Source of the DNA: Ignavibacteriales bacterium | GTDB taxonomy: Bacteria; Bacteroidota; Ignavibacteria; Ignavibacteriales; Melioribacteraceae | Assembly: GCA_020061355.1 (NCBI GenBank) | Contig: JAGUYK010000039.1 | Span: 38,490 to 102,489, forward strand | DNA length: 64,000 bases | Reading direction: 5' to 3' | Shown here: in pieces, positions 24,387-62,141 of the stretch | How the letters are laid out: each line of letters begins with the position of its first letter | Position numbering within the stretch: the stretch's first letter is position 1 | Notes under the pieces: generated by a model | Told to the model about the DNA's origin: nothing | Databases searched by the model: none | The model's input: only the letters and a program-made list of their open reading frames with translations | Position numbers and translations under genes: made by a program

Positions 24387-24415
24387 TTGACTTAAAAAAC
24401 AAAACTCAGTATTAT
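24387..24415 (+). promoter_or_regulatory. Sigma70-type promoter of the large glycan locus
   Basis: TTGACT (24387-24392) and TATTAT (24410-24415) are separated by exactly 17 bp, 102 bp before the TonB receptor ATG. This is close to the general bacterial consensus. It is a good candidate promoter for the 24-gene + strand run. Confidence 0.7.
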
Positions 24416-24423
24416 GCACCACC

Positions 24424-24433
24424 TGGTATACCA
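24424..24433. promoter_or_regulatory. Putative GntR-type operator TGGTATACCA
   Basis: A perfect 10-bp palindrome just 8 bp after the -10 box, where a bound repressor would block initiation. The GT..AC core agrees with general GntR-family operators, and a GntR-HTH regulator is the third gene of the locus (28974). Binding is inferred. Confidence 0.55.
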
Positions 24434-24516
24434 AGTATGCCAATTTAAGATTAAGCACTAAAATATTTCTTTAATTAAACCGACTCTAACTTAAAGTTTT
24501 CATTTCGGAGGATCGA

Positions 24517-27357
24517 ATGAAACTCTCGATATTAAATTTTTTTCTCTCCCTTTTTCTATTGATTTCAATTTCTTCTAATCTATTAGCGCAGACTGGAAAT
24601 GTTTCGGGAGTTGTTACAGATGCAACTGACAGATCACCACTCCTCGGTGCTAATATAATAGTTAGCGGGACATCTATTGGTACCACAACAGATAGAGATG
24701 GAAAATATCGACTTGTTAGACTTAATGAAGGCAGGACACTAATCTTATTTATGTACCTCGGATATGATACAGATAGTGTCTGGGTAAATGTTGCCAGCGA
24801 TCGAACTGTTTCCGTTGATGTTACACTTAAACCAAAAGTTATACTCGGTCAGGAAGTGGTTGTAACCGGACAGTTACAGGGACAAGCCGCTGCAATAAAT
24901 CAACAATTAGCGTCTAACACTATAATCAATGTCGTATCGAAAGATAGAATCCAGGAGTTGCCGGATCAAAATGCGGCAGAGTCTGTTGGGAGACTTCCCG
25001 GTATTTCAGTTGAAAGGGATGCAGGAGAGGGAACGAAAGTTATTGTAAGAGGATTGGCTGCTAAATTTAATTCTGTTACTATTAACGGACAAAGAATTCC
25101 GTCAACTGATCCGCAAAACCGGTCTGTTGATTTAAGTATGATCTCTTCCGATATGCTCGCCGGTATCGAAGTATTTAAAGCTCTTACACCCGATCAGGAT
25201 GGTGATGCTGTGGGCGGCAAAGTAAATTTCGAAATTAAAAAAGCATCCGAAGGATTTAATTCAAATATTAGAGCACAAGGAACTTATAACAGTCAGGAAA
25301 AAGATTATGGAAATTATCGGGGTAGCTTTACGTTAAGCAATCGATATTTTGATAATAAACTTGGGTTGGTTGCTACAGGAAGTTTACAAAGAGCAAATAG
25401 AGGGTCCGATCTGTTAGATGCAAATTACCTCTTTGCTAGGGAAGCACTTCCCGGTGAGGCACATGCCAGGATTACAGTTGAAAATTTAAACCTGGGAGAC
25501 CGGGTTGAAACAAGGGATCGCTATGGTGCAAGTGTAGTTGTAGATTATAACCTGGGTAATGGAGAATTACTCTTCAGCAGTTTATACGGAAGGACTGACA
25601 GAGATGAAGTTAGAAATAGGAAAAGATACCGTGTTGATAATGCCTATGTAGAATACTGGTTGCGGAGCAGAGAAATTAATATCGATTTATTTACAAATTC
25701 ATTAAGTGGTAAACATAATTTCAGCGCAATGAAGTTGGAGTGGCAAGCGTCTTATTCATATTCAAAATATAATATGCCGTTTATGCACGATTCACAATTC
25801 AGGGAGGTTGGGGCTTACCTTGGTACACTTGTTACGGATAAAGGACCTGAAATTATACCTCTTGGCGCTAAAAATAATCTGGACCAGACAAGATTTTATC
25901 AGGACTTCTTTAATAGAGAGATGACAAAGGATAGAGATTACACAGCACAATTCGATCTAACAATTCCTTATTCTCTAACCAGTGATTTAACCGGAAATTT
26001 AAAAGTTGGTGGAAAGTACAGAGATAAAAATAGAAGTTTAGATAAAGAAGAATGGATGACTCTCGCTTTTAAGATTGATCAGATTGGAAAAAATAATCCT
26101 ACACTTTTTAATACTACAGGCGAAGGCTATATCAAAATAAATAATTTTTATGATGATGATTATGATATTGGTGAGTTTCTAAATGGTAAATATGTGTTTG
26201 GACCAGCTAAAGCATTAAGCCGCCAAAAGATAGATAACTTTATGAATACTTACTGGACAGATTATACTAGAAACTACGGTAAGGACCTTGAAGATTATTC
26301 TGCCGGGGAAGCAATTACTGCTGGTTATGTTATGGCAGAATTAAACATTGGTCCACGCTTAATGATTCTACCGGGATTTAGATACGAAGGAACCACTACC
26401 AACTATAAAAGTGTATTTGGTCAGGCACGTGTTGATGAAAGAGGGATTGTTACATTGGAAGGTGCAACAGATACTGTTGGCACTGTCTCGTATAACGAAT
26501 TACTTCCAATGGTACACATTAGGTATAAATTTACAGATTGGTTTGATACAAGGATAGCAATTACAAAATCCTTAGCAAGACCAGATTATTTCAATTTGGT
26601 TCCCTGGGAAAGAATCAGCTACTTTGATGGAACGGTTGAAAGAGGCGAACCTTTCTTAAAACATACTAAGGTTTGGAATTATGATATCTTTTTTTCTTTC
26701 TACGGTAACTATGGATTATTTACCATTGGAGCTTATTATAAATCTCTTAAAGATATTGAATACATAAGAGTTGGCCGGGTTACTGAAGCGGGTTCTACAC
26801 TTGGATTTACTTTGACCAAACCTGAAAATTCTAAATATGAAACCAAAGTTTATGGTGTTGAATTCGAAGTTCAGACTAACTTAAGATTTCTCCCAAGTCC
26901 TTTTGATGGAATAGTATTATCAGCAAACTATTCTTATATCCATTCTAAAACACATTTCCCGTTCTTGAAAGTTGGTCCGAGAAATCCATTACCTCCGTTT
27001 AATTTTACTTTTATTGATACTGCAAGGGAGGCAAGAATGCCCGGGCAAGCTAATCATCTTGCAAACTTTACATTCGGATATGAGAAGGGGAAATTCTCAG
27101 GTAGAATTTCTATGATTTACCAGGGAGATGCACTTCAAACAATCGGTACACGTGCTGAGTTAGACGGCTATTCAGATGATTTTGTAAGGTGGGATTTAGC
27201 TCTGCAGTATAAAGTATTACCCAAACTTGCCGTAACATTCAACATGAACAATTTATCGAATTTACCAGAAGGAGCATTCTTAGGTATAGAAACATTTGCA
27301 ACAAGAGAGGAGTATTTCGGCTGGACAGCTGATTTAGGTATCCGGTTTGATTTATAA
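24517..27357 (+). CDS. TonB-dependent receptor with carboxypeptidase-regulatory-like domain
   Basis: An outer-membrane active transporter of 946 residues. It has a signal peptide (ending near NLLAQTG), then a carboxypeptidase-D-regulatory-like domain at about 28-105 (SGVVTDATDRSPLLGANIIV), then a plug with IQELPDQNAAESVGRLPGIS, VIVRGLAAKFNSVTING and VFKALTPDQDGDAVGGKVN. That plug pattern is the type typical of Xanthomonas/Caulobacter glycan receptors (TIGR01782) rather than SusC, and no SusD partner is present. The barrel ends in WTADLGIRFDL. It has an optimal cggagga ribosome-binding site. As first gene of the locus it should import oligosaccharides released at the surface. Confidence 0.88.
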   Translation: MKLSILNFFLSLFLLISISSNLLAQTGNVSGVVTDATDRSPLLGANIIVSGTSIGTTTDRDGKYRLVRLNEGRTLILFMYLGYDTDSVWVNVASDRTVSVDVTLKPKVILGQEVVVTGQLQGQAAAINQQLASNTIINVVSKDRIQELPDQNAAESVGRLPGISVERDAGEGTKVIVRGLAAKFNSVTINGQRIPSTDPQNRSVDLSMISSDMLAGIEVFKALTPDQDGDAVGGKVNFEIKKASEGFNSNIRAQGTYNSQEKDYGNYRGSFTLSNRYFDNKLGLVATGSLQRANRGSDLLDANYLFAREALPGEAHARITVENLNLGDRVETRDRYGASVVVDYNLGNGELLFSSLYGRTDRDEVRNRKRYRVDNAYVEYWLRSREINIDLFTNSLSGKHNFSAMKLEWQASYSYSKYNMPFMHDSQFREVGAYLGTLVTDKGPEIIPLGAKNNLDQTRFYQDFFNREMTKDRDYTAQFDLTIPYSLTSDLTGNLKVGGKYRDKNRSLDKEEWMTLAFKIDQIGKNNPTLFNTTGEGYIKINNFYDDDYDIGEFLNGKYVFGPAKALSRQKIDNFMNTYWTDYTRNYGKDLEDYSAGEAITAGYVMAELNIGPRLMILPGFRYEGTTTNYKSVFGQARVDERGIVTLEGATDTVGTVSYNELLPMVHIRYKFTDWFDTRIAITKSLARPDYFNLVPWERISYFDGTVERGEPFLKHTKVWNYDIFFSFYGNYGLFTIGAYYKSLKDIEYIRVGRVTEAGSTLGFTLTKPENSKYETKVYGVEFEVQTNLRFLPSPFDGIVLSANYSYIHSKTHFPFLKVGPRNPLPPFNFTFIDTAREARMPGQANHLANFTFGYEKGKFSGRISMIYQGDALQTIGTRAELDGYSDDFVRWDLALQYKVLPKLAVTFNMNNLSNLPEGAFLGIETFATREEYFGWTADLGIRFDL

Positions 27358-27414
27358 GATTCTTTTAACCAAAATAAATGTTAATTAATCACACAATAAC
27401 AAAGTGAGGCAGTT

Positions 27415-28959
27415 ATGAAGAAAAACTACATTTCAATCATCAGTGCTTTTTTAGTGATCTGTCTATTCGTTTTAACGAATGATCTGTTAGCACAAAGAAT
27501 CGTACAGGTACCGCAAGGAGTTGGTACTCTGGATGCAGTTGTAAGGGGAGATACATTACCAAGTGGTCAGAGAGTTAATCCCAATACAATTTATGAGTTG
27601 GCTCGTGGTGGTTATTACATCACGATGTCTTCACTGGAAAACCGCGATTATCATCTTCATATCAGAGCAGCTGCAGGATCAGGTAAAAAACCGATTATAA
27701 GACCGGGAGTTTCTGGTGGTGGTACATCAAACAGACCATTCCAGGCACGAGCAAATCTTACTCTTGATGGTGTTTACGTAACAAATCTTGACGAGCAGAA
27801 TGCTTTATTGCAGAACATTATCAGGCTTAGTGCAGATAATGTAAAGTTGACAATTCTTAATTCTCACTTAGATAGAGATCTTCAGGCAGCAATAAGGTGT
27901 GATGCAAAGAATCAAAAAGTGATTATTAAAAATTCTATTATCAGTAATATTGGTTCAATGCAAAGTCCGGATAACGGAAGAGGTGTTGACGATAGAGGTA
28001 ACGACATTGATACCTTGATTTATGAAAACAATACGTGGTATAATCTTTCAAGTAGAATTCTTCGTGACGGCGGCGGAATAATTAAATACTGTTGGATAAA
28101 CCATAATACAGTTGTTAATGTTGCACAATGGGGATGTTCAATCGGCCCTGCTATCGAAGCCCATTTCAGGAATAATCTTTTTGTTAATACAGGATTTATT
28201 GGAAGAAGTTCAACACAAACATGGGTAATGCTTGAAACAGCAGCATTATCCCAAGCCTGGCTCGATCAAGGTTTTACTCAAAAGCTTATGATTCATAACA
28301 ACAGTTTTTATGTCGATCCCGATATTACATCTGCAATACCGGCGGATAGAACACCGACGCCAGTTATGAATGATCATGCTCTTGCTGCTGTTACTGCCGG
28401 AGGATGGACTTCAACTATTAAGAATCTAAATGTAAGCTTTACAAAGGGTCCACAAAATCCCAAAAATGTTATGCAGGATTATTTCAATGCTGCAGTTACT
28501 GTTAAAACAGATATGGATAAAGGAGGCGGAACTCCTGAATTCGGTCAGACTCAAATGCCGTTTAACTTTGCTTATCCAACATCATCTGCGCTTTATACTT
28601 CCGGTACAGCAAATCAACCATTAGGTGATTTAAATTATTTTGGTATTCCGGTTGGTGTAACCAATGATGAAATTCTTGCCAGTGAATATCAACTCTACTC
28701 GAATTATCCGAATCCGTTCAATCCTTCAACAAACATCCGTTATTCAATTCCTGCAGCCGGAAATGTTAAGGTTGAGATCTTTAATACTTTGGGTCAACTT
28801 GTTAATACTGTGGTAAATCAGCATCAGGAAGCCGGTACACATAATGTCTTTTGGAACGGAATGGATATAAGCGGTAATCAGGTATCGACAGGAGTCTATA
28901 TTTATAAACTGACAACCGGAAATTTTGTATCAGCTAAGAAAATGGTTCTAGTAAAATAA
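27415..28959 (+). CDS. Secreted right-handed beta-helix protein with T9SS domain
   Basis: A protein of 514 residues with a signal peptide (ending LLAQRIV). A right-handed parallel beta-helix follows from about residue 40 to 300, shown by repeated short strands with N-rich turns (LTLDGVYVTNLDEQN, VKLTILNSHLD, VIIKNSIISNIG, HFRNNLFVNTG). It resembles the DUF4957/PL6-like helices of surface glycan-binding proteins and lyases. A T9SS sorting domain (SNYPNPFNPSTN, ending KKMVLVK) covers the last 85 residues. It lies 57 bp after the TonB receptor and may take the surface-binding role that SusD-type proteins have in other loci, or act as a lyase. Catalytic residues cannot be named. Confidence 0.75.
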   Translation: MKKNYISIISAFLVICLFVLTNDLLAQRIVQVPQGVGTLDAVVRGDTLPSGQRVNPNTIYELARGGYYITMSSLENRDYHLHIRAAAGSGKKPIIRPGVSGGGTSNRPFQARANLTLDGVYVTNLDEQNALLQNIIRLSADNVKLTILNSHLDRDLQAAIRCDAKNQKVIIKNSIISNIGSMQSPDNGRGVDDRGNDIDTLIYENNTWYNLSSRILRDGGGIIKYCWINHNTVVNVAQWGCSIGPAIEAHFRNNLFVNTGFIGRSSTQTWVMLETAALSQAWLDQGFTQKLMIHNNSFYVDPDITSAIPADRTPTPVMNDHALAAVTAGGWTSTIKNLNVSFTKGPQNPKNVMQDYFNAAVTVKTDMDKGGGTPEFGQTQMPFNFAYPTSSALYTSGTANQPLGDLNYFGIPVGVTNDEILASEYQLYSNYPNPFNPSTNIRYSIPAAGNVKVEIFNTLGQLVNTVVNQHQEAGTHNVFWNGMDISGNQVSTGVYIYKLTTGNFVSAKKMVLVK

Positions 28960-28973
28960 TTTTAAGGTAAATT

Positions 28974-30122
28974 ATGGGCAAAGGGATTAATCCAGTTGAT
29001 CCGACTCCCTTGTATGAACAGGTTGAATCAGACATAAAAGATAAAATTCAGAAAGGGGAATTAGTACCCGGTCAACAGATAGCATCGCAGAACGATCTCG
29101 CAAGAGAATACGAAGTAAGTCTTATTACAATTAAAAAAGCTTTGTATAATCTTGTTAATGAAGGTGTCTTGTACACACGGGTTGGTAAAGGGACTTATAT
29201 TGCCGAACCATCTCATAAAAAGATTGATCTCTCTGCCCATAAAACTATTGGACTTGTTTTAAGAGATATTAAACATCCTTACTTTTCCTTTGTTGTTCAT
29301 CATATAGAAGAAAGAGCGAACGAATTAGGATTTAACCTGCTACTCTCGAGTTCATCTAATAATATGGAAAAGGAAGAAGCTCAGATTAATCGCTTTAGAA
29401 ATATTGGAGTAGATGGAATTATCATAGCTTCATTATCTCTTCAATATCGAGCTACAGATTACATCAAAAAATTACACGAAGAAAATTTTCCATACATAAT
29501 GGTTTCGTACATGCACGATCCGGAATACTGGTATGTAGGTTCGGATCATGAATACGGTGGTTTTCTTGCAACCGAGCATTTCATAAAACTTGGTTATAAG
29601 AGAATCGGCTTTCTGCATGTTGGAAGGGGCAATCTTCTTTGTGAAATAAGAAAGAACGGTTATTACCGGGCATTATCGGAATATAATATTCCATACGATT
29701 CAAAACTTATCTATTACACCGGTGAGGAAAATTTTGAATTTATTAATGACCGGTTTCTTCAAGGATATCATTTCGGCAAGAGTTTCAAACAACTCGATCC
29801 TAAGCCCGATGCACTTTTTATCCATAGCGATCTGATGGCCGTAGGTTTTGAGAATGCAATGCTGGAAGAGGGATTTGAAATTCCGGAAGACATTGCAATT
29901 ATAGGATTCGACGGAATAGAGGCCGCTGCCCTCGCCTCAGTACCGTTAACTACAATTGTTCAACCGGTTCAAAAAATTGGAACTCTTGCCGTTGATATCA
30001 TTCACAAGAGAATTGAAGGAAGCGATATTGGTAACCGTACCATCCTTAAGCCTGCATTGATAATAAGAGAATCGTGCGGAGCTAAGAAAAAATATTCCAG
30101 CAGGGAATTACAGGTAGGCTAA
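28974..30122 (+). CDS. GntR-HTH regulator with LacI-type sugar-binding domain
   Basis: A transcription factor of 382 residues with two parts. Residues 1-75 are a GntR winged helix (PTPLYEQVESDIKDKIQKGE, DLAREYEVSLITIKKALYNL, GKGTYIAEPS). The rest is a periplasmic-binding-protein-like LacI domain (KTIGLVLRDIKHPYFSFVVH, VDGIIIASLS, IGFDGIEAA, TTIVQPVQKIG). This is the AraR-type design, in which a sugar ligand releases the repressor. It is encoded third in the locus, 14 bp after the beta-helix gene, so it is probably autoregulated through the palindrome at 24424-24433. The ligand is likely a uronic-acid or hexosamine breakdown product. Confidence 0.88.
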   Translation: MGKGINPVDPTPLYEQVESDIKDKIQKGELVPGQQIASQNDLAREYEVSLITIKKALYNLVNEGVLYTRVGKGTYIAEPSHKKIDLSAHKTIGLVLRDIKHPYFSFVVHHIEERANELGFNLLLSSSSNNMEKEEAQINRFRNIGVDGIIIASLSLQYRATDYIKKLHEENFPYIMVSYMHDPEYWYVGSDHEYGGFLATEHFIKLGYKRIGFLHVGRGNLLCEIRKNGYYRALSEYNIPYDSKLIYYTGEENFEFINDRFLQGYHFGKSFKQLDPKPDALFIHSDLMAVGFENAMLEEGFEIPEDIAIIGFDGIEAAALASVPLTTIVQPVQKIGTLAVDIIHKRIEGSDIGNRTILKPALIIRESCGAKKKYSSRELQVG

Positions 30123-30154
30123 AATTAATTAATTGTAAAACTGAGAGAATTGAA

Positions 30155-31945
30155 ATGCTATATCCTCTTGTAAATAATTTTAGAAACGTTCTTGATTTAT
30201 CGGGAATCTGGGAATTTAAAACCGATCCGAAAAAAATCGGGGAAAGGGAAAAATGGTTTAAAGGATTTAATACAGGAACTACAATTGCGGTTCCGGGAAG
30301 TTGGAACGAGCAGCTCGAAGAACTCGGATTACTCCACTATGTTGGTTCAGCATGGTATTCAAAAAAAGTTTTTATCCCTTCTGAATATGAATCTAAAAGA
30401 ATTATCCTGCGAATAGGTTCAATTGATTACAATTCCAAATTCTGGATTAATGGAAAATTTGCCGGTGAAAACAAAGTCGGTTTTCTCCCTATTGAGTTGG
30501 AGATAAATGATTTTGTTGTCCCCGGTAAGGAAGCTATAATCGTAATAATGGTTAATAACGAATTGAGTGATGAAACATTGCCCCAGGGTATAACTTCAAA
30601 ACGATTTAGAGATGAAAAAAGATTGCGTGATGAGACCAATCCCCCAACAAGATATGATTTCTCTCCCTATGGAGGTATTCACCGGACAATACAATTAGTT
30701 ACCACACCTCACTGTTATATTAAACAGATAAAGATCGATACAAAAATATTGAATAATAGAAATGGGCTCGTTAATGCTGAAATTATAATCAACAGTAAAA
30801 AATCCTTAGTTATTTCAGCACAGATTATTAGCGGTAAAAAAGTTCTTTCGCAAAAGACCTCTCTGAATAGCGGTAAAGCTAAAGTAAAATTTGAAATAAG
30901 TAATTGCAAATTCTGGTCGATCGATAATCCTTTCTTATACGATTTAAAGATCGAGCTGCTTGATGAAAAAAATATTATTGATGAATACAAAACACCTTTT
31001 GGCGTCCGCGAAGTAGTCATTTCAGGTAACAAGCTTTTATTGAATGGTAAAGAAATTTATTTAAAAGGTTTCGGAAAACATGAAGACTTTTCTGTTATCG
31101 GTAAAGGTCTTTTCCTTCCGTTAATGGTAAAAGATTTTGAATTGATGAAGTGGATAAATGCTAATTCATTTAGAACTTCTCATTATCCATACTCGGAAGA
31201 AATGATGTTCTATGCAGATCGTAAAGGTTTCCTTGTTATTGACGAAGTACCTGCGGTTAGTCTCGATTTCCGGTATGTAAACGGTAATACTTTGAAAACT
31301 CATAAAGAACATATAACAAGACTGATTGATAGAGATTATAACCATCCCTCTGTAATTATGTGGGCGGTAGGTAACGAACCGAATTTAGTTGGTGATAAGA
31401 ATTATTATAACGGTTCTGCGAAAAAATATTGGAAGGAAATTTTCGGCTTCACAAAAAAAATAGATAGCAGCCGACCTATTACTGTACCGAATTGTACCCG
31501 TGCCGGTGTAAATGACCCGGTATTTGAATTCTCGGACGTGCTTTCTCTTAACAGGTACTATGGCTGGTACGAATATCCAGGTAACCTTGATGAAGCCACA
31601 AGTATTCTAAGTAAGGAAATGGACACTATATTTAATAAGTATAAAAAACCGATCCTTTTTACCGAGTTCGGAGTTGATACTATGCCGGGATTACATTCAA
31701 TATCAACTCAAATGTTTACAGAGGAATATCAGCAGCAGTTTCTGGAAGCATATATAAATCTTATTCGTTCAAAAAAATATACGATAGGTGAGCACGTTTG
31801 GAATTTTGCGGATTTTAGAACACCGCAACATTTTAGAAGAGTTGTATTAAATCTGAAGGGAGTTTTCAACCGGAACCGTGAACCCAAATCTGCCGCATTT
31901 CTTCTTAAAAGAATCTGGCAGAATCCATCAAAAAATAAATTATAA
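30155..31945 (+). CDS. uidA: Beta-glucuronidase (GH2, UidA-type)
   Basis: A GH2 enzyme of 596 residues, nearly the length of E. coli UidA (603). It has the N-terminal jelly-roll (LDLSGIWEFKTD), Ig-like middle and TIM barrel. The acid/base is E408 in WAVGNEPN and the nucleophile is E504 in FTEFGVDTMPGLHS. The NxK motif that distinguishes beta-glucuronidases from galactosidases by contacting the substrate carboxylate is present as N566-L-K568, preceded by R562 and followed by REPKSAAF. No signal peptide is visible, so it should act in the cytoplasm on imported uronides, releasing glucuronate. It sits between the regulator and a symporter. Confidence 0.92.
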   Translation: MLYPLVNNFRNVLDLSGIWEFKTDPKKIGEREKWFKGFNTGTTIAVPGSWNEQLEELGLLHYVGSAWYSKKVFIPSEYESKRIILRIGSIDYNSKFWINGKFAGENKVGFLPIELEINDFVVPGKEAIIVIMVNNELSDETLPQGITSKRFRDEKRLRDETNPPTRYDFSPYGGIHRTIQLVTTPHCYIKQIKIDTKILNNRNGLVNAEIIINSKKSLVISAQIISGKKVLSQKTSLNSGKAKVKFEISNCKFWSIDNPFLYDLKIELLDEKNIIDEYKTPFGVREVVISGNKLLLNGKEIYLKGFGKHEDFSVIGKGLFLPLMVKDFELMKWINANSFRTSHYPYSEEMMFYADRKGFLVIDEVPAVSLDFRYVNGNTLKTHKEHITRLIDRDYNHPSVIMWAVGNEPNLVGDKNYYNGSAKKYWKEIFGFTKKIDSSRPITVPNCTRAGVNDPVFEFSDVLSLNRYYGWYEYPGNLDEATSILSKEMDTIFNKYKKPILFTEFGVDTMPGLHSISTQMFTEEYQQQFLEAYINLIRSKKYTIGEHVWNFADFRTPQHFRRVVLNLKGVFNRNREPKSAAFLLKRIWQNPSKNKL

Positions 31946-31948
31946 CCA

Positions 31949-33649: not shown

Positions 33650-33675
33650 AAAAAATAAATAAAATAATATGAGTC

Positions 33676-33721
33676 ATTCTACAATTCCTAGGTTTGTGAT
33701 AAGACTGATAAATTGTAGAAT
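33676..33721. other. Intercistronic hairpin
   Basis: ATTCTACAATT (33676-33686) is perfectly complementary to AATTGTAGAAT (33711-33721) around a 24-base loop, in the roughly 100-bp gap between the symporter and the toroid gene. It could attenuate or stabilise part of the long transcript. Confidence 0.5.
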
Positions 33722-35640: not shown

Positions 35641-35645
35641 ATTTG

Positions 35646-37538: not shown

Positions 37539-37545
37539 GTATGCT

Positions 37546-39351: not shown

Positions 39352-39371
39352 ACGATATAAACGGAGAAACA

Positions 39372-41856: not shown

Positions 41857-41863
41857 AAGAAAT

Positions 41864-53174: not shown

Positions 53175-53189
53175 AGAGGTAACAAAGAA

Positions 53190-54548
53190 ATGAAAGCAAA
53201 AGGAATTTTAATCTCGTTCTTAATGATAATCAGTTTGTTAGAATTACCTGCCCAGGAAAACTGGAGAGCATTATTCAATGGAAAAGATCTATCCGGCTGG
53301 GAACCGATTAATGGTTATGCAAAATTTTATGTACAGGATGGAATCCTTGTCGGTGAAGCAGTGGTTGGATCGCCAAATTCTTTCCTTTGTACGAAAGAAA
53401 AATTTTCAGACTTCATACTTGAGTTCGAAGTTAAAACAGATCCGAAGTTGAATACGGGAGTCCAATTCAGAAGCGAAAGTAATAAGGATTACATGAATGG
53501 GAGAGTATACGGTTATCAGGTGGAAATCGACCCATCGGATAGAGCTTGGAGCGGCGGTATTTATGACGAGGCACGTCGAGGATGGATTTATACACTCGAT
53601 GAAAATCCAAATGGAAGAAAAACCTTTAAGAACGGTCAATGGAATAAAGTACGGGTTGAGGCAATTGGTAATTCTATACGAACATGGATTAACGGTATTG
53701 CATGTGCGGATATAATTGATAATACGACGAGTGTAGGATTAATCGGCTTACAGGTTCACGATATCAAAAATGATCCGGCTAAAAACGGAATTAAAGCAAT
53801 GTGGCGGAATATCAACATAATGACCAATAATTCTGAAAAGTACAAATCGCCTGCTGAAAATATTCCTCAATACAATTATATATCTAATACAATTTCTGAT
53901 TACGAAAAAGAACAGGGCTGGAAATTATTATGGGATGGTAAAACAACTGAAGGATGGCGGGGAGCTAAACTTGAAACTTTTCCGGAATATGGCTGGGAAA
54001 TAAAAGATGGTGTCTTAAAAGTATTACCTTCAGGTGGCGCTGAATCGAGAAACGGTGGTGATATTATTACAACCCAAAAATACAAGAATTTCGAATTGAT
54101 AGTCGATTTCAAAATCACAGAAGGCGCTAACAGTGGAATAAAATATTTTGTTGATGCAGAATTAAATAAGGGAGAAGGTTCCGCAATTGGATGCGAATAC
54201 CAAATTCTTGATGATGCAAAACATCCCGATGCAAAACTTGGTGTTGCGGGGAACAGAACATTAGGCGGGCTATACGATTTAATTTCTCCTATTAATAAAA
54301 GGTTTAATGGAATCGGTCAATGGAACCGTGCAAGAATTATTGTAAATGATAATCATGTTGAACATTGGCTTAATGGATTCAAGGTCGTTGAGTATGTTCG
54401 AAGCACGCAGATGTGGCGCGCATTGGTTGCTTACAGCAAATATAATGTATGGAAAAGTTTCGGAGAGTTTAAAGAAGGACATATTCTACTTCAGGACCAC
54501 GGGGATGAGGTTTCGTTTATGAATATTAAAATCAGAGAATTAAATTAA
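53190..54548 (+). CDS. Secreted protein with two DUF1080 (3-keto-glycoside hydrolase-type) domains
   Basis: A protein of 452 residues with a signal peptide (ending LLELPAQEN) and two copies of the DUF1080 concanavalin-like fold. The first runs about 25-210 ([49 protein letters not shown]). The second runs about 240-450 ([57 protein letters not shown]). Some DUF1080 proteins cleave 3-keto-disaccharides formed by an oxidoreductase, and such an oxidoreductase is the next gene, 13 bp away. Which copy is catalytic cannot be decided here. Confidence 0.82.
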
Positions 54549-54561
54549 CCGGAGAGTTAAA

Positions 54562-55920
54562 ATGAAAAATACAAGAAGGGAATTCATAAAAAAGTCGGCA
54601 TTAGCTGCTGCAGGTGCTGCTTTGGCTTCAACCGGATTGAACGCTAAAAGTTATGCAAGAATTATTGGTGCAAATGATAGAGTTGCTGTTGGACTTGTCG
54701 GTTTTTCTGATAGATCGAAACAATCCTTAATCCCTGCATTCATGAGCTATGCTGATAAAATGAACTTTGAGATAAAAGGTGTATCCGATATATGGAATAG
54801 AAGAAGAAATGAGAGCATTGAATTTTTCAAAAAAGAATATGGAAAAAATATAATTACATATTTGAATAATGATGAACTCTATAATGATAAAGATATTGAT
54901 GCCGTTATTATATCGACTGCGGATTTTCAACATGCACTTCATACGGTTGAAGCTGCAAATAATAAGAAAGATGCGTATGTGGAAAAACCGTTTGCAGAAA
55001 CGATGGAAGATAACCGCCTTGCACTTAAAGCAGTAAAAGAATCTGGAATAATTTGCCAGATCGGATCCCAAAGAAGAAGTGGACCCAATTACCATAAAGC
55101 ATTCGAGTTTATTAAATCCGGAAAGTTTGGTGATATTAAAATGGTTGAGATGACCTGGAATGTGAATCAGCCGGGCAGATGGCGCAGACCCGATTTAGTT
55201 TCTACCATAAAAGAGAGTGATACAGATTGGAAAAGATATATTATGAACCGTCCATATGAAAGTTGGGATGCAAGAAAATATGTTGAGTATAGATTATTCT
55301 GGCCATATTCATCGGGAATACCAGGACAATGGATGTCTCATCAAATAGATACTGTGCATTGGTTTAGCGGATTGAGATTTCCGAGAAGCGTTACCGCTAA
55401 TGGCGGAATCTATATGTGGAACGATGGTCGAAAGAATTATGATGCTATGACTGCTGTTTTCGATTACGGTTCTGGAGACGATTTAACAAAAGGTTTTCAA
55501 GTATTATATTCTTCACGAATGTTTAATTCTGCAGGCGGAGTAAAAGAAATTTATTACTCCAATGGAGGAGAATTAAATTTAGATACGAACAAAGTTACAG
55601 CAACCGGCGGATTAACTGAGCAATTTGCAAAATCCATGAAAATGCAGCCAAACTTGCTTCCTGAAATTGATTTGGCTGTTGCTGATATAAAAGTTGAAAC
55701 TTCAGCAAATACAGGCGCCGATGTTATGACTTCACTTCATATGCTTAATTGGATGGAATGTATCCGTTCCCGCAAAGAACCAAACGGTCCGGTTGAAGCG
55801 GGCTATGACCACTCGGTTGCTAATATTATGGTTACTGCAGCACTGAGGACAAAAAAGTACGTGACGTTTGATAAAGTAAACCAGGAAGTTTTGGCGGATG
55901 GAAAAGTATTTCAATACTGA
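54562..55920 (+). CDS. Tat-exported Gfo/Idh/MocA-family oxidoreductase
   Basis: A protein of 452 residues with a twin-arginine signal (NTRREFIKKSALAAAGAALA), so it is folded and loaded with NAD(P) before export. The Rossmann part shows VAVGLVGFSDRS and DAVIISTADFQHALHTVEA, then the family signature DAYVEKPFAETMEDNRLALKA. The C-terminal alpha/beta domain has MSHQIDTVHWFSG, with His residues placed as in the active site. Exported members oxidise the 3-hydroxyl of glycosides. It lies between two-domain DUF1080 and GH28 genes. Confidence 0.85.
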   Translation: MKNTRREFIKKSALAAAGAALASTGLNAKSYARIIGANDRVAVGLVGFSDRSKQSLIPAFMSYADKMNFEIKGVSDIWNRRRNESIEFFKKEYGKNIITYLNNDELYNDKDIDAVIISTADFQHALHTVEAANNKKDAYVEKPFAETMEDNRLALKAVKESGIICQIGSQRRSGPNYHKAFEFIKSGKFGDIKMVEMTWNVNQPGRWRRPDLVSTIKESDTDWKRYIMNRPYESWDARKYVEYRLFWPYSSGIPGQWMSHQIDTVHWFSGLRFPRSVTANGGIYMWNDGRKNYDAMTAVFDYGSGDDLTKGFQVLYSSRMFNSAGGVKEIYYSNGGELNLDTNKVTATGGLTEQFAKSMKMQPNLLPEIDLAVADIKVETSANTGADVMTSLHMLNWMECIRSRKEPNGPVEAGYDHSVANIMVTAALRTKKYVTFDKVNQEVLADGKVFQY

Positions 55921-56005
55921 TCAATTTTCAGATTTATTATTTAATCATTGTAGAGGTTCTTTCATTCGATAAAAAAATAGAATGTTCACATAACAAAAAG
56001 CTAAT

Positions 56006-57607
56006 ATGAAAACTCTCAAATTATTTATAATGCTTTTATTACTTGCAACAACTCTTTTTGCACAATTAAATTCATTAAGCATTTATAATGTTAAGGATTT
56101 CGGTGCAATAGGGGACGGGAACACACTTGAAACAAATGCACTGCAGAAGGCAATTGAGGAATGTTCCGTTTCTGGCGGAACAGTTTATTTTCCTCCGGGA
56201 AAATATTTAACAGGTTCGCTTGAACTCAAGAGTAATGTCGATATTCATATCTCTGTAGGAGCAATTATTCTTGGCAGCACAAATATCTCCGATTACAAAG
56301 AATTTATTCCACAAATGAAATCTTACAACGATGCTTTTCTGAAACATTCTATTTTTTATGCAGAGAAAGCAGAAAATATTTCGATTAGAGGTGAAGGTAC
56401 AATTGATGGGCAGGGTAGTGCATTCAAAGTGACAACAAGGGAAAAACCCGAAAGATATAAAAACCGTCCGTATGTAATCAGGTTTGTTGAGTGTAAAAAT
56501 GTTCGTATTGAAAATGTGACGATGCAGAATTCTGCAATGTGGATGCAGCAATATCTCGCATGTGAAGATCTTTTTATTAGAGGTATTCGTGTTTATAATC
56601 ATGCAAATCAAAACAATGATATGATGGATATCGACGGCTGTAAGAATGTTATAATCTCCGACTGCATTGGTGATACTGATGATGATGGAATTACACTTAA
56701 AAGCACTTCATTTGCAATTACCGAGAATGTTGTAATAACTAATTGTGTAATTAGCAGTCATTGCAATGCTATCAAACTTGGAACAGAATCGCATGGCGGA
56801 TTCAGAAATATAACAATATCGAATATTGTGGTTAAACCTTCGAAGGATAAAGAACCAATTTATGGGCATCAGCAAGGCATTAGCGGAATTACATTAGGAA
56901 TGGTTGATGGTGGAATTCTTGAAGGAGTAACAATTTCAAATATTATAATCGAGGGAACACATGTTCCGATCTACATGCGTCTTGGAAATCGAGCCCGTAA
57001 GTTCTATGATGAGCAGCCTAAACCTGGAGTTGGCACCTTTAATAATGTGATGATAAGTAATGTTATTGCAACAGATGTTCAATCGTCAATCGGTTGTTCA
57101 ATTACTGGAATACCAAACCATAATGTTCAAAATGTTAGTTTGAACAACATATCAATTGAATTCCCAGGTGGAGGATCAATTGAAGATGCTAAGAAAATTT
57201 TGCCGGAACTTGAAGATCATTATCCTGAAAGCACAAAGTGGGGCAACTTGCCTGCGTTTGGATTTTTTATAAGACACGCTGACAATGTCAGTCTGAACAA
57301 TATTGAAATTCGGCTTAAGAATTCCGATGCCCGTCCGGCTTTAGTTTGTGACGATGTTAAATTTTTAACAATAGCAGGGCTGAAAACTGATGCTGCATCT
57401 CAGTCAAAAAATGTAATTTTCTTCAGAAATGTTATAGAGGGAACAATAGAATCCTCAACACTCCGTTCAAATTCAAATACCTTTTTAGAGATCACCGGTG
57501 ATCAAAATAAAAACATATCTGTTATCAATAATGTTTTACTGAATGTAAAAAAAGTAATTGATAATAAAAGCAAAACTAAAGTAAGGGAATCCGGTAATAT
57601 TAGATAA
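56006..57607 (+). CDS. GH28 family polygalacturonase-like hydrolase
   Basis: A secreted right-handed beta-helix enzyme of 533 residues with a signal peptide (ending TTLFAQLN). The N-terminal pectin-lyase-fold start YNVKDFGAIGDGNTLETNALQKAIEE is given here only by its core DFGAIGDG. GH28 active-site blocks follow as NNDMMDIDGCKNV, DTDDDGITLKS (the catalytic Asp pair) and SHCNAIKLGTESHGG. It should hydrolyse uronic-acid or rhamnose-uronate linkages. A gap of 85 bp precedes it, the largest in this part of the locus, and may hold an internal promoter. Confidence 0.83.
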   Translation: MKTLKLFIMLLLLATTLFAQLNSLSIYNVKDFGAIGDGNTLETNALQKAIEECSVSGGTVYFPPGKYLTGSLELKSNVDIHISVGAIILGSTNISDYKEFIPQMKSYNDAFLKHSIFYAEKAENISIRGEGTIDGQGSAFKVTTREKPERYKNRPYVIRFVECKNVRIENVTMQNSAMWMQQYLACEDLFIRGIRVYNHANQNNDMMDIDGCKNVIISDCIGDTDDDGITLKSTSFAITENVVITNCVISSHCNAIKLGTESHGGFRNITISNIVVKPSKDKEPIYGHQQGISGITLGMVDGGILEGVTISNIIIEGTHVPIYMRLGNRARKFYDEQPKPGVGTFNNVMISNVIATDVQSSIGCSITGIPNHNVQNVSLNNISIEFPGGGSIEDAKKILPELEDHYPESTKWGNLPAFGFFIRHADNVSLNNIEIRLKNSDARPALVCDDVKFLTIAGLKTDAASQSKNVIFFRNVIEGTIESSTLRSNSNTFLEITGDQNKNISVINNVLLNVKKVIDNKSKTKVRESGNIR

Positions 57608-57615
57608 GGATTATT

Positions 57616-58863
57616 ATGAACAGAAGGAATTTTATTCGAAACTCCGCACTTATAGGTGCGGTTGCATCAGTTCAGAATATTGCATCCGTAAAAGGAAATA
57701 TTGCAAAAAAAAAGATACATATTGAGGAAAATGTATACAAAAATGTTTTTGATAAAACTTTGTTAATAAAACCTGTGATCATTGATTCGATTAAGCTTAT
57801 CAAAAACGGAAAAGTTTATATTGTGATTGTAAGATCCAAAGATGGTGCCGAGGGCTATGCAGTTTCTCACCCCAAATTTATGGAAACACTCTGGCCTGTT
57901 TTTCTCACCTATGTTGTTCCCCCTTTCATCGGTAAAGACGCCCGTGAAATCGAAAATTTATTAACAGATGTTTATCTGTTCGATAGTAATTATAAGAAAC
58001 AGGGGTTACTCTTCTGGGTACCGGTCGCATCACTTGAATTTGCAATCCTTGATCTGCTGGGTAAAGTTGTAAATAAATCCATCGGAGATTTTTTTGGAAG
58101 TGTTCTTCAGAAAGAGATCAATGTATACCGTGCCAGTGAAAAAAGAGGAAATATACCCGAAGAGGAAATTGCATATTTAAAGAGAATTACAGAACCGATC
58201 GGTGCAAAGGCATTGAAATTCCGGCTTGGTGCAAGAATGCGTTATAATGATCAATCTACAAATAGAGATCTTGCGTTAATACCTCTGGTTCGTAAAACAT
58301 TTGGCGATGACTTTACAATTTATGCAGATGCGAATGGTTCTTACGATGTTCCAATGTCCTTAAAAATAGGGAAGGTGATGGAAGAGTATAAATACAGTTT
58401 CTTTGAAGAACCATGTCCTTTCGATTATTATGAAGAAACAAAAGAGATTGCAGATAAACTCGAAATAAAAATAGCGGGTGGAGAAGAAGAAAGTAGTTTA
58501 AGAATGTTTAAGTGGATGATCGAACATGACGTAGTTCAAACTGTTCAGCCGGATCTGCTCTACTTTGGCGGTTTAATCCGATCCGTTAAAGTTGCACGGA
58601 TGGCACAAGCTGCCGGAATTAATTGCACTCCTCATATGTCAGGTAATGGATTGGGATATTTGTATGTTCTTCATTTTGCATCATTTATTCCGAATTGCGG
58701 ACCACACCAGGAATTTAAGGGTGATAATGATAAAGTTCCGTTTGTTTGTTCAACCTCATCATTGAAGGCTATAAATGGTAAGATAACAGTACCAACTGGA
58801 CCGGGATTAGGAATTGAAATTGACCCGGATTTTATTTCTTCTGCAAAAGAAGTTAAACTTTGA
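57616..58863 (+). CDS. Exported enolase-superfamily protein (MR/MLE type), copy 1
   Basis: A protein of 415 residues with a Tat-like leader (MNRRNFIRNSALIGAVASV). The enolase-superfamily barrel shows the lysine strand GAKALKFRLGARM (K-x-R), the metal ligands in IYADANGSYD, FFEEPCPFD and IAGGEEES, and a His in NCTPHMSGNG. Members abstract the proton next to a carboxylate, as in sugar-acid dehydratases and racemases. Export of such an enzyme is unusual. Its product and substrate are unknown; uronates or aldonates are natural guesses. It starts 8 bp after the GH28 stop. Confidence 0.78.
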   Translation: MNRRNFIRNSALIGAVASVQNIASVKGNIAKKKIHIEENVYKNVFDKTLLIKPVIIDSIKLIKNGKVYIVIVRSKDGAEGYAVSHPKFMETLWPVFLTYVVPPFIGKDAREIENLLTDVYLFDSNYKKQGLLFWVPVASLEFAILDLLGKVVNKSIGDFFGSVLQKEINVYRASEKRGNIPEEEIAYLKRITEPIGAKALKFRLGARMRYNDQSTNRDLALIPLVRKTFGDDFTIYADANGSYDVPMSLKIGKVMEEYKYSFFEEPCPFDYYEETKEIADKLEIKIAGGEEESSLRMFKWMIEHDVVQTVQPDLLYFGGLIRSVKVARMAQAAGINCTPHMSGNGLGYLYVLHFASFIPNCGPHQEFKGDNDKVPFVCSTSSLKAINGKITVPTGPGLGIEIDPDFISSAKEVKL

Positions 58864-58887
58864 TTAAAAACTAAAGTCGATTTTGAA

Positions 58888-60105
58888 ATGAAGAGAAAAG
58901 ATTTTTTCAAAAGCTTATCACTAAGTGCTGCTGCCGGTTTTATTCCATTTTCAAATTTATTTTCGAAAGAAATGGGTGTGCAGAATTTCAATAAGGATAA
59001 CTCCGGCGTTAATATATCCAAACTAGAAACTTTTGTTTTTAAGAATGCTACTTTTGTTCGAATCGAATCTAGTGAGGGAATTTCCGGATGGGGAGAAGCT
59101 GATCATGATTATCCGAAATTGACGGCTTCTTTAATAGATGAGATTTGCAAACCAATCATTTTAGGCAAGGATCCTTTTGATACCGAATATTTATGGCATC
59201 AAATGATATTTAAAGGTGAAGATGCAGGAAGCACGGGATTATTGCCTGGCGCAATTGCTGGTGTTGATAATGCCCTGTGGGATTTAAAGGGTAAATTGCT
59301 GAAACTGCCGGTCCACAAAATTTCAGGCGGATTTAATGTAGATAAGGTCAGAGTTTACGGAAGTTTTGGAAGAGGAGATAATCCTAAAACTCGAAAAGGT
59401 CCTGAAGCGATGGCAAAAACTGCACTCGATTTTGTGTCACAGGGCTATAAGACAATTAAAGCAAGAATGCAGATACGACAATTGAATGTTGACCCCGACC
59501 CCGATGATACTTTTGAAGTTATTAAGGCAATTCGCAAAGCTGTTGGAGATAATATTGAAATTTTTGTCGATTATAATAATGGATATACTCCTGCTAAAGC
59601 AATTGCACTGACGAGAAAACTCGTAGAAAATTTAAATATTGCGGCAATTGAAGAACCGGTTTCATATCATAATTACGAAGGACTAAGACAAGTGGTTGAG
59701 GCAATTGATATTCCTGTAATGGCCGGAGAGCATGAATTTAACAGATGGCAGATGAGAGACCTTATTACTATTGGAAAAGCGGACATGATAAATGCCGATC
59801 TGATCAAATGTGGAGGATTTTCAGAGTGCCGGAAGGTTGCTTTCATGGCACATGCTTTCGATAGATATATTATGACGCATAATACACGTCCAACTTTAGC
59901 AACTGCTGCAAGTCTTCAACTTGTTTCATCAATCCCGAATGCAGCACGCATTCAGGAATATGCCGGTTCACGTCCCGAAATGGGATTAGATAAACTTTTT
60001 GATAATTACTTTAAATTCGAGGGTGGATATTTATTTTTGCCGGATCTTCCCGGATTGGGTTTAATTGTAAATGAAGAAGCTATGCGAAAAAATAAATTGA
60101 ATTGA
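58888..60105 (+). CDS. Exported enolase-superfamily protein (MR/MLE type), copy 2
   Basis: A protein of 405 residues with an N-terminal leader (MKRKDFFKSLSLSAAAGFIP), weaker than a true twin-arginine motif because it reads KRKDFF. The barrel has the strand GYKTIKARMQIRQ (K-x-R), the ligands IFVDYNNGY, AAIEEPVSYHNYEG and MAGEHEFNRW, and IMTHNTRP with a His. It differs clearly from copy 1 (24 bp upstream), so the pair is not a recent duplication. A sugar-acid dehydratase or epimerase role is likely but the substrate is not known. Confidence 0.78.
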   Translation: MKRKDFFKSLSLSAAAGFIPFSNLFSKEMGVQNFNKDNSGVNISKLETFVFKNATFVRIESSEGISGWGEADHDYPKLTASLIDEICKPIILGKDPFDTEYLWHQMIFKGEDAGSTGLLPGAIAGVDNALWDLKGKLLKLPVHKISGGFNVDKVRVYGSFGRGDNPKTRKGPEAMAKTALDFVSQGYKTIKARMQIRQLNVDPDPDDTFEVIKAIRKAVGDNIEIFVDYNNGYTPAKAIALTRKLVENLNIAAIEEPVSYHNYEGLRQVVEAIDIPVMAGEHEFNRWQMRDLITIGKADMINADLIKCGGFSECRKVAFMAHAFDRYIMTHNTRPTLATAASLQLVSSIPNAARIQEYAGSRPEMGLDKLFDNYFKFEGGYLFLPDLPGLGLIVNEEAMRKNKLN

Positions 60106-60134
60106 TACTTTTAATAAAATTAACCAATAATAAC

Positions 60135-60959
60135 ATGAACAATCATAGCAGAATAATTTTTATCATTATTTCATTTCTTTTCACGGTAAATATCGTATTT
60201 CCACAAAAGCCGGATACCGAAAAATGGGTAGGACTTTTTAACGGAAAGGATTTATCAGGATGGAGTTCATTCTTAAGTACGGTTGATAAAGAAGAACCAT
60301 TCCTTATAAATGAAGATCCTCAGAAAATATTCCAGGTGATCGGAAACGAACTCCACTTTTATAAAGATCAAAATGAATCGGATAAAGTTCCGGAAGGATA
60401 TCTTTATACTACAAAGGAGTATTCAGATTTCAGACTTCGGTTGGAATATAAATGGGGGACTAAAAAATTTGCACAAAGAAAAAATAAATTAAAAAATTCT
60501 GGATTGATGTTTAATGCGCAGCAACCGTATGGTTTCTGGCCCACCAGCATTGAATATCAAATATCTGAAGGAATCACTGGTGATGCATATACTCAGAATT
60601 GTGCTTGGTTTACAACGACTATTGATTCTATTGTCCTCGATAAGTCCTCAAAGAGATCGTTTCCGCGTTATTCGCCGAATGGGAAATTATATGACTATGG
60701 TGGTAATCAATCGAGCATGAGGTTGATTGGCCCAGGTAATCTTGATCACCCGGAAGGATGGAATAAAGTTGAAATGATAGTCCGGGGAGATAGTGCAGTA
60801 TTTTATGTAAATGGTACCGAAACAGTAAAGGTCTGGAATATAAGATATGATAAGCCCGGTATTGAAAATGATGTTAGGTCTATGAAGAAGGGTAGAATAG
60901 TACTTCAGGCTGAAGCTACGGAAATAATTTTCCGAAGTATTGAAATTTTAGAAGAATAA
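60135..60959 (+). CDS. Secreted single DUF1080-domain protein
   Basis: A protein of 274 residues from the ATG at 60135; the upstream TTG at 60102 is unlikely. A signal peptide (ending NIVFPQKP) precedes one DUF1080 domain ([76 protein letters not shown], closing RIVLQAEATEIIFRSIEILE). It is the third DUF1080 domain in the locus and probably hydrolyses or binds 3-keto-glycosides. Confidence 0.82.
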   Translation: MNNHSRIIFIIISFLFTVNIVFPQKPDTEKWVGLFNGKDLSGWSSFLSTVDKEEPFLINEDPQKIFQVIGNELHFYKDQNESDKVPEGYLYTTKEYSDFRLRLEYKWGTKKFAQRKNKLKNSGLMFNAQQPYGFWPTSIEYQISEGITGDAYTQNCAWFTTTIDSIVLDKSSKRSFPRYSPNGKLYDYGGNQSSMRLIGPGNLDHPEGWNKVEMIVRGDSAVFYVNGTETVKVWNIRYDKPGIENDVRSMKKGRIVLQAEATEIIFRSIEILEE

Positions 60960-60990
60960 GAGAGACCTCTGTTCATAATTGATGAAATTC

Positions 60991-61025
60991 ATTCCGGCTG
61001 ATTGAAAAATAGTGGATGCCGGAAT
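60991..61025. other. Short inverted repeat before the URO-D-like gene
   Basis: ATTCCGGC (60991-60998) is complementary to GCCGGAAT (61018-61025) across a 19-base loop, within the 96-bp gap. No T-run follows, so it is not a clear terminator. Confidence 0.35.
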
Positions 61026-61055
61026 AAAGATAAATTGTAATTGAAGGAGTGTTAG

Positions 61056-62141
61056 ATGTTCGAGAAACAGGCTGAGTATATAAATCGACATATGAGTTTC
61101 TGGAATTTAGAAAAAGTCGGTCGTCCTCTTATCGGTTTTACAATTGGTGCCGGTTTGGATTCATGGAGCTACTGGCAATATAATAACGCGGCACAAGCGT
61201 TATTAAATAGAGAAATAGTGTCACCAGAGGATATTAATCCTGATGACTTCATTGATGATCAATTAAAATATCTTGAACTTTCCAATCAGGTTGATGATGA
61301 TATAATTCGTTCGGCACTTCCGCTTGCATCTGTTCCCTGGATGGAAGCAATACTTGGCTGCCCGGTATACTCAACCGAAGCCCACATGACCTGTCGCAAA
61401 ATTTTAGATAATATTGATCTTTCCAAAATTAATGAATGTAAGGTGGAAAACGAATGGGTGAAAAAGTATTTCGAATTTATTAAGGTTTACGAATTGGCAT
61501 TTGATAGAAAATATCCGGTTGCTCAATCAATAATACGCGGGCCGTCAGATCTGGCCTGTGCTCTTTTAGGTGCTGAAGATGCTGCGATAGCATTGTTAAC
61601 AGAGCCGGAAAATATGCATCAGCTATTTAATTTTATTACCGAACAGGTCTCAAATTTTCTTAAAATGAACATTGAACGCTTACCGGAATTTTATGGGGGA
61701 TATGTAATAGGTCAATATGAAATTTGGGCACCTGAACCAGCAATCAGAATTCAGGAAGATTTTTCGAATTTGTTTTCACCTGAACTTTACGACGAGTTTT
61801 TAAAGCATTGTGATCAAAAACTGGCATCTATTACAAATTATACATTGATTCATCTTCACTCCTCATCATTATTCCTAATCGAAAAATTTCTTGATATAAA
61901 TTCCATTAGGGCTTTCCAAATAACGAAGGATCCGGGTATCGCACAATTGAGCGAAATGATGCCGTCATTAAAAAAAATTCAGGATACAGGCAAACCGTTG
62001 ATTGTAAAAGGTCGGTTTGATAAAAACGACATCGAATTGATAAAGTCGAATTTATCACTTTATGGTTTGTGCATTCAGCCGGTTGTTAAAAATTTTAACG
62101 AAGCTAATCAATTAATTACGGAATTGAAATCCTGGCGATAG
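61056..62141 (+). CDS. URO-D-superfamily protein without the zinc site
   Basis: A TIM-barrel protein of 361 residues resembling the URO-D/methyltransferase superfamily (FEKQAEYINRHMSFWNLEKV, IIRGPSDLACALLGAEDAA, LLTEPENMHQLFNFITEQV). At the place where MtaA-type enzymes and the relative at 20409 have HTCG it reads LIHLHSSS, and no late cysteine motif is evident, so the zinc-dependent methyl-transfer site seems lost. Its role may be decarboxylation, isomerisation or an unknown reaction. It has an aaggag ribosome-binding site and is the last gene of the large locus, followed by a terminator. Confidence 0.65.
   Translation: MFEKQAEYINRHMSFWNLEKVGRPLIGFTIGAGLDSWSYWQYNNAAQALLNREIVSPEDINPDDFIDDQLKYLELSNQVDDDIIRSALPLASVPWMEAILGCPVYSTEAHMTCRKILDNIDLSKINECKVENEWVKKYFEFIKVYELAFDRKYPVAQSIIRGPSDLACALLGAEDAAIALLTEPENMHQLFNFITEQVSNFLKMNIERLPEFYGGYVIGQYEIWAPEPAIRIQEDFSNLFSPELYDEFLKHCDQKLASITNYTLIHLHSSSLFLIEKFLDINSIRAFQITKDPGIAQLSEMMPSLKKIQDTGKPLIVKGRFDKNDIELIKSNLSLYGLCIQPVVKNFNEANQLITELKSWR

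Follow-up and report, generated by a model that had tools for sequence, protein, structure and literature searches.

SusD-less TonB glycan loci whose receptors are of the Xanthomonas/Caulobacter type are known as CUT systems. Among the described pathways closest to the locus reported here (each paper being cited for the part of it drawn on), Bacteroides caccae PUL25 acts on unsulfated chondroitin with PL35, GH88 and GH109 enzymes and a GH154-type dehydratase that makes saturated glucuronate ends substrates for GH88 (PMC12269599), and for ulvan a sequence-unrelated dehydratase performs the same saturated-end conversion (PMC8511951). A 3-keto-glycoside pathway with a BT2157-type DUF1080 hydrolase has also been described (PMC9007349). 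We analysed a 64,000-nucleotide stretch from an Ignavibacteriales bacterium (the window; positions 38490-102489 of contig C43 in genome G000, which comprises 3.69 Mb in 47 contigs) and, within it, a row of 24 genes, g1 to g24, that appears to be a glycan catabolic locus (Table 1).

That the target is a polymer of uronate and N-acetylhexosamine, as the original prediction had proposed, is well supported by the gene families and by a predicted fold of g6 that resembles glycosaminoglycan (GAG) lyases. We propose, as an evenly balanced call, a dedicated catabolic locus for a polysaccharide containing both hexuronic acid and N-acetylhexosamine; an exopolysaccharide or capsule of bacterial or algal origin is the likelier target, ahead of animal hyaluronan or heparosan. 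Among published pathways, B. caccae PUL25 comes closest in its logic, and by analogy the locus may work similarly; it lies outside the SusC/D loci and, as judged by sequence, outside the solved GAG-lyase families.

Receptor type and enzyme content compared with described systems

Families were assigned with Pfam and NCBIfam. The earlier assignments of a TonB receptor, GntR-LacI regulator, GH2, two GH84, GH20, GH88/105, GH28, PL22-like propeller, NagB-like protein, phosphatase, SSF and Nramp transporters and a type IX secretion system (T9SS) protein were borne out, the last by its C-terminal sorting domain. That list named 17 of the 24 genes; it left out g12, g18, g19 and g21 to g24, which include the 3-keto and dehydratase-like genes.

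Seven receptors from related loci (Microbulbifer, Balneolaceae, Agaribacillus, Pedobacter, two Chitinophaga and one Sphingobacteriales metagenome-assembled genome (MAG)) all scored above the TIGR01782 cut-off, as g1 does, and none scored above that of the SusC model. The SusD family PF07980 gave 0 matches across the whole genome G000, which this search covered, and a control Bacteroides gave matches. The locus has neither a SusD lipoprotein nor a SusC-type receptor, and the prediction that it does not belong to the standard SusC/D kind stands. With the Xanthomonas/Caulobacter-type loci it shares a TIGR01782 receptor, a LacI/GntR regulator, glycosidases and an inner-membrane sugar transporter, but it differs from them in phylum, in its T9SS surface protein (a family kept at 30-47% identity in relatives' loci), in its exported-looking 3-keto and dehydratase-like enzymes and in the glycan.

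Like PUL25, the locus combines a toroid/beta-sandwich lyase fold, a GH88-type hydrolase, exo-hexosaminidases and a further toroid protein with no dedicated sulfatase (PMC12269599). It departs from PUL25 in having a TonB receptor without SusD, GH20 and GH84 instead of GH109, GH28, NagB and a cytoplasmic-looking GH2, and in that profiles of g6, g9 and g16 gave no PDB chain of PL35 or GH154 at E <= 1. The PF06439 hydrolases g18 (302.7 bits) and g23 (101.3 bits) and the GFO/IDH/MocA oxidoreductase g19, all exported-looking, recall the 3-keto-glycoside pathway (PMC9007349); g19, the dehydrogenase candidate, scores far under the BT_2158/BT_2159 equivalog cut-offs, however, and the set sits inside a uronate-hexosamine locus.

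For g4, the equivalog score, the catalytic residues and the NxK motif all agree with a GH2 beta-glucuronidase, as far as the protein sequence can tell. It has no signal peptide, and g12, g15 and g24 likewise look cytoplasmic. Export signals were judged by eye from the N termini, apart from that of g19, which matched the Tat signal model TIGR01409 (21.3 bits, cut-off 16.7).

The toroid-type proteins g6, g9 and g16

Three unassigned toroid proteins had been predicted, and they correspond to g6, g9 and g16. For g6 and g16 the toroid is visible in structural models; the assignment of g9 comes from short matches to toroid families. The g6 protein of the window has no Pfam match. Its model has the two-domain fold, toroid plus beta-sandwich, of PL35, PL33 and PL12 GAG lyases and of dermatan-sulfate epimerase (DSE), while its profile (A3) found no lyase among PDB sequences at E <= 1 and DSE at 0.18. 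Tyr237 is invariant in the family and aligns with a Tyr of a PF05426/PF07940 protein; no invariant His was shown at the position of PL35 H401. The PL10 Pfam family matched 4 of the 11 g6 members weakly. On the predicted fold, g6 is a candidate new polysaccharide lyase, dehydratase or epimerase. Elsewhere in the genome, contig C28 (L063, L064) encodes a pair of heparinase-II/III-like proteins separated by about 5 kb, of which one has an alginate-lyase N-terminus.

Profile searches of the PDB with g6, g9 and g16 found no PL35 or GH154 chain at E <= 1. A GH154 chain was also not among the rows listed for the g16 model, and g9 was compared by sequence profile alone. No enzyme family could be identified for any of the three. 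It is likely that at least one of these families is a new carbohydrate-cleaving or dehydrating family.

Target polymer, conservation and competing explanations

Conservation was followed in 395 genomes drawn from the phylum, G000 included, and in loci from the GTDB species collection. At thresholds of E <= 1e-10 for g16, 1e-50 for g9 and 1e-20 for g6, these families occurred in 9, 8 and 7 of the 395 genomes, respectively. The three overlap in three genomes of one family, G000, G031 and G224, and the latter two, like the window, have g6, g9, GH84 and GH28. Ignavibacteriales bacterium DeMMO6_29 holds the closest relative of g16 that was found (71%).

The GTDB species collection yielded 25 g16 loci, from Ignavibacteria/Melioribacteraceae, Neomarinimicrobiota, Balneolaceae and other Rhodothermia-type MAGs, Bythopirellula, Microbulbifer, Pseudokordiimonas, Saprospiraceae, Agaribacillus, Chitinophaga, Pedobacter and related MAGs. 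Records of Balneola sp. EhC07, Chitinophaga rupis and Microbulbifer elongatus are among those with g16 loci; g9 and GH28 are both present in Chitinophaga, whereas neither was seen in Balneola. Neighbours were counted within 10 kb, at 75 bits or more and with each open reading frame (ORF) credited to its best query alone. In these 25 loci, which are not independent (there are near-relative pairs in Chitinophaga and Pedobacter, some loci are partial and several records are genomes of the 395 set), NagB was present in 19, TonB in 18, GH20 in 16, GH88/105 in 13, g6, g9 and GH28 in 10 each, Nramp and the isomerase in 9 each, GH2 and the g2-type protein in 7 each, the SSF g5, g17, g22 and g25 in 2 each, g3 and GH84 in 1 each, and g10, g18, g19, g21, g23 and g24 in none. 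Two g16 genes, in Bythopirellula (L031) and Saprospiraceae (L039), had no other query within 10 kb. The parts TonB, NagB, GH20, GH88/105, GH28, g6, g9 and g16 recur across distant phyla in different mixes.

Every one of the eight g9-positive genomes has NagB; seven have a g20-type GH28 and six have GH20 (not G243 or G377), and the eighth with respect to GH28, G158, carries another GH28 type beside g9 on the opposite strand. In the named collection, 9 of the 10 g9 loci have NagB and 9 have GH28; L030 (Neomarinimicrobiota) has neither of them, nor GH20. The version in G243 is minimal (TonB, g2-type T9SS protein, regulator, g9, NagB and two GH28), and its 18-kb contig holds no GH2, GH20 or GH84. 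In G393 the first half is almost completely retained, the g10 phosphatase (49%) included, and no g16 or GH84 lies within its 40 kb; a 583-aa ORF between g9 and Nramp in that locus (L066, joined 24044-25795) matches no query.

The window has g9, and since g9 occurs together with GH28 and NagB, we prefer an exopolysaccharide to hyaluronan or heparosan as the target. Known activities of GH28 are on alpha-galacturonides and rhamnogalacturonan, and we know of no role for this family on hyaluronan or chondroitin. PF05089 (NAGLU/GH89), the family that would act on the alpha-N-acetylglucosamine bonds of heparosan, gave 0 matches in the genome and matched 2 controls. The interpretation first put forward thus survives for the uronate/N-acetylhexosamine polymer and, plausibly, for its unsulfated state, whereas its narrowing to hyaluronan or heparosan is not supported, in view of the near-constant GH28 with g9, of G243 and of the lack of GH89.

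The absence of a sulfatase from the locus, also predicted, was upheld. The genome encodes two sulfatases, which both lie on contig C9 (motifs CTPSR and CSPTR), and BLAST with these two as queries found none in the window, in 982 ORFs of related loci (a set in which some genomes are counted twice) or in five further loci. The co-located sulfatase of a sulfated GAG locus is missing here, and the lack of sulfatases in these loci supports, without proving, an unsulfated target, which is plausible on that basis. On C9 (L061) three tandem ORFs of about 810 aa, alike in their starts, precede the sulfatases, and a GH28-like ORF lies at the contig start; this set looks like a separate sulfated-glycan locus.

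One point weighs against the unsulfated state and another against the exopolysaccharide. The C9 sulfatases could act in trans. In addition, all six Balneolaceae-type cassettes (f32) hold TonB, g2-type, g16, Nramp, GH2, isomerase, GH20, NagB, GH88, SSF and GntR-LacI genes; they also have a PhyH gene (assigned in G139), and five have a GATase1-like gene. They lack g6 and g9, and only two of them carry a distant GH28 (25-26%). Such a set would fit hyaluronan or chondroitin, and our confidence in the exopolysaccharide is lowered because these cassettes point the opposite way. PhyH-family (Fe/2OG) dioxygenases were seen in related cassettes at L016:12767-13591 and L042:1783-2541.

The Balneolaceae-type cassettes argue instead for an unsulfated GAG (hyaluronan, chondroitin or heparosan), which g6 would cut, with g14 removing unsaturated glucuronate, GH20 and GH84 removing N-acetylglucosamine or N-acetylgalactosamine and g4 dealing with saturated glucuronate. 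The g6 model, closest in both domains to PL35/PL33 GAG lyases, and the UidA-type score and NLK motif of g4 are consistent with this, as is the B. caccae chondroitin pathway of toroid lyase, GH88, N-acetylhexosaminidase and toroid dehydratase (PMC12269599). We nevertheless consider a GAG target rather unlikely, given the GH28 of the g9 loci and the occurrence of g9, NagB and GH28 without GH20 in G243 and G377; the heparosan version is further burdened by the lack of GH89.

It is a little less probable again that two neighbouring loci were taken for one, a uronate-aminosugar locus (about g1 to g17 plus g20 and g22) and a 3-keto/aldonate set (g18, g19, g21, g23 and g24). Many first-half genes are widespread and no ORF in the 25 relatives' loci has a gene of the second set as its best match, which suggests such a division. 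The gaps, however, are at most 101 bp throughout, the conserved g20 and g22 are interspersed in the 3-keto set, and g22 is kept together with g25 in L029. A pectin-like target (decorated rhamnogalacturonan or galacturonan, the hexosamine enzymes serving side chains or being misassigned) is improbable: GH28, GH88/105 and PL22-like proteins, all present here, are classic pectin families, and the weak PL10 matches of g6 point the same way, but few genes are as conserved as NagB, GH20 is common in the g16 loci, and a separate pectin-like TonB/GH28/GH88/TRAP locus already exists on contig C39.

For the favoured uronate-hexosamine exopolysaccharide, gene content, family membership, conservation and the predicted g6 fold suggest the following flow. 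The T9SS protein g2 and the TonB receptor g1 would capture and import fragments without SusD. In the periplasm, the candidate lyase g6, and possibly g16, would create unsaturated uronate ends to be taken off by g14; GH20 (g13) and GH84 (g7 and g8) would remove hexosamine, GH28 (g20) would remove alpha-uronide, and g9 may carry out some uronate or hexosamine step. Small products would move inward via g5 and g11. Inside the cell, g4, the isomerase g12 and the NagB-like g15 would feed the KduI/KduD/UxaC/KdgA-type genes on C39. The 3-keto hydrolases, the GFO/IDH protein and g21 may be an add-on of this lineage.

Transport, downstream genes and locus boundaries

The helix-1 DPGN metal site of Nramp divalent-metal importers is not present in g11 (the register to MntH was judged by eye), and the motifs GYNIGTGS and GTTMG are invariant in its family. 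The nearest solved relative is 7qia, which we take to be EleNRMT, a Mg transporter. Nramp proteins of the g11 type are tied to the glycan cassette in Ignavibacteria, Neomarinimicrobiota, Balneolaceae-type and Agaribacillus loci. The NrmT/YcsG-type Nramp outgroup is similar in fold and in lacking DPGN, but g11 differs in its two invariant motifs and its cassette linkage; this outgroup has been presented as connecting to transporters that carry substrates other than metals (PMC4072509). A metal transport role of g11 may still apply, because the Asp is likewise absent from YcsG-type proteins and Mn import has been reported for YcsG (PMC10448178). In G089 a YcsG-like Nramp (L017:11953-13943) and an adjoining LamB/YcsF gene lie a few kb upstream of the cassette, and a similar Nramp occurs in G187.

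A search of the rest of the genome for NagA, an N-acetylglucosamine kinase and sulfatases had been suggested. Besides the C9 sulfatases it gave a NagA-like amidohydrolase, named by eye, at C23:97577 (L054:1294-2541) and a BcrAD/BadFG-family kinase at about C43:21.1 kb. The apparent signal-like start of the former would put a deacetylase outside the cytoplasm. The pectin-like locus on C39 (L058-L060), which also has T9SS genes, holds KduI (C39:77686) and UxaC (C39:88446), both by Pfam, and KduD- and KdgA-like genes recognised through their resemblance to proteins that were themselves named by eye.

The 24 ORFs, all on the forward strand, span 24517-62141, and the gaps between neighbours range over -53 to +101 bp, in line with the predicted co-directional row with gaps of at most about 100 bp. 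The starts of g8 (37489) and g11 (41804) overlap the preceding gene by 50-53 bp, and the true start of each looks like an internal Met at about residue 20-21. A terminator had been predicted at the end of the row, and a hairpin with a T-run there is probably a real one as read from its sequence, though it is not among the hits of a consensus terminator scan; a 216-nt stretch around it folded as a whole no better than shuffles (z 0.44). The LacI gene g25 starts 213 bp 3' of the row and is probably part of the locus. The divergent trio at 20409-24286 probably belongs to it as well, because its GATase1-like protein recurs in five of the six Balneolaceae-type cassettes and a relative of its URO-D protein lies just upstream of the G393 locus; its SSF symporter has only distant SSF matches (21-25%) in those loci. 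A purple-acid-type phosphoesterase with a T9SS tail, akin to g10 in kind, lies on the reverse strand at 11680-14241.

Table 1. Features of the locus and its flanks (window positions)
Feature	Position	Strand	Evidence
g1 TonB receptor	24517-27357	+	TIGR01782 399.3 bits (cut-off 310); SusC model TIGR04056 67.8 (cut-off 368.25)
g2 T9SS-exported protein	27415-28959	+	only C-terminal T9SS sorting domain assigned; beta-helix is the original prediction's reading
g3 GntR-LacI-type regulator	28974-30122	+	PF00392, PF13377
g4 GH2 beta-glucuronidase	30155-31945	+	NF007538 606.7 bits (cut-off 544); NEP at 407, TEFG at 503, NLK at 566
g5 SSF symporter	31949-33649	+	PF00474
g6 candidate new uronate lyase, dehydratase or epimerase	33751-35640	+	model matches PL35/PL33 lyases and DSE, both domains
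g7 GH84 family protein	35643-37538	+	PF07555 76.4 bits; ADD at 299-301
g8 GH84 family protein	37489-39351	+	PF07555 83.1 bits; PDB 5diy 1.2e-12
g9 conserved toroid-type lipoprotein	39372-40616	+	54-62% identical in alignment A4; short matches to several toroid families
g10 purple-acid-type phosphoesterase	40639-41856	+	PF16656, PF00149; 49% identical in G393
g11 Nramp-fold transporter without DPGN	41804-43096	+	PF01566 191.5 bits; GTGS replaces DPGN in 10/10 members
g12 xylose-isomerase-like sugar isomerase	43105-44025	+	PF01261
g13 GH20-type hexosaminidase	44004-46598	+	PF02838, PF00728; CDET at 311-314 aligned to GH20 DE
g14 GH88/GH105 unsaturated uronyl hydrolase	46595-48337	+	PF07470 257 bits; PDB 3k11, YteR
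g15 NagB-like deaminase/isomerase	48379-49137	+	PF01182; TIGR00502 148.8 bits, below cut-off 236.9
g16 851-aa exported-looking toroid protein	49134-51689	+	model pLDDT 89, toroid; galactose-binding-like N domain
g17 TonB_C and PL22-like propeller lipoprotein	51717-53174	+	PF03544, PF14583
g18 3-keto-disaccharide hydrolase family, two domains	53190-54548	+	PF06439, 2 stretches
g19 GFO/IDH/MocA oxidoreductase, Tat-like start	54562-55920	+	PF01408; NF058561 92.1 bits, below cut-off 750
g20 GH28	56006-57607	+	PF00295; NF049898 320 bits, below cut-off 500
g21 MR_MLE (enolase superfamily) dehydratase-like, exported by eye	57616-58863	+	PF13378
g22 MR_MLE (enolase superfamily) dehydratase-like, exported by eye	58888-60105	+	PF13378, PF02746; 76% identical in L029
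g23 3-keto-disaccharide hydrolase family	60102-60959	+	PF06439
g24 URO-D/methyltransferase-like	61056-62141	+	PF01208 22.3 bits, just under cut-off 23.9
Terminator-like hairpin and T-run	62175-62197	+	AAAAATCTGCGGGCAGATTTTTT
g25 LacI regulator	62355-63389	+	PF00356; 70% identical protein follows g22 homologue in L029
URO-D family protein, divergent trio	20409-21545	-	PF01208; 70% identical to URO-D just upstream of G393 locus version
Second SSF symporter, divergent trio	21607-23454	-	PF00474
GATase1-like protein, divergent trio	23486-24286	-	PF07090; 67-68% identical to proteins inside 5/6 Balneolaceae-type cassettes

A bolder possibility, which we think unlikely as a whole, is that this is a new catabolic system for one specific uronate-aminosugar polysaccharide, elements of which also occur in distant phyla, and that it brings three new enzyme families. 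In that case g6 would be a polysaccharide lyase or an oligosaccharide dehydratase, g9 a toroid enzyme linked to NagB and GH28, and g16 an enzyme joining a carbohydrate-binding module to a toroid, and g11 would move a sugar acid or hexosamine and not a metal. If g11 does carry sugars, it would show the relation of metal importers to LeuT-fold organic transporters. The locus makes three protein families that accompany uronyl hydrolases, hexosaminidases and NagB accessible to testing, and it points to an acidic aminosugar polymer used by bacteria of several phyla.
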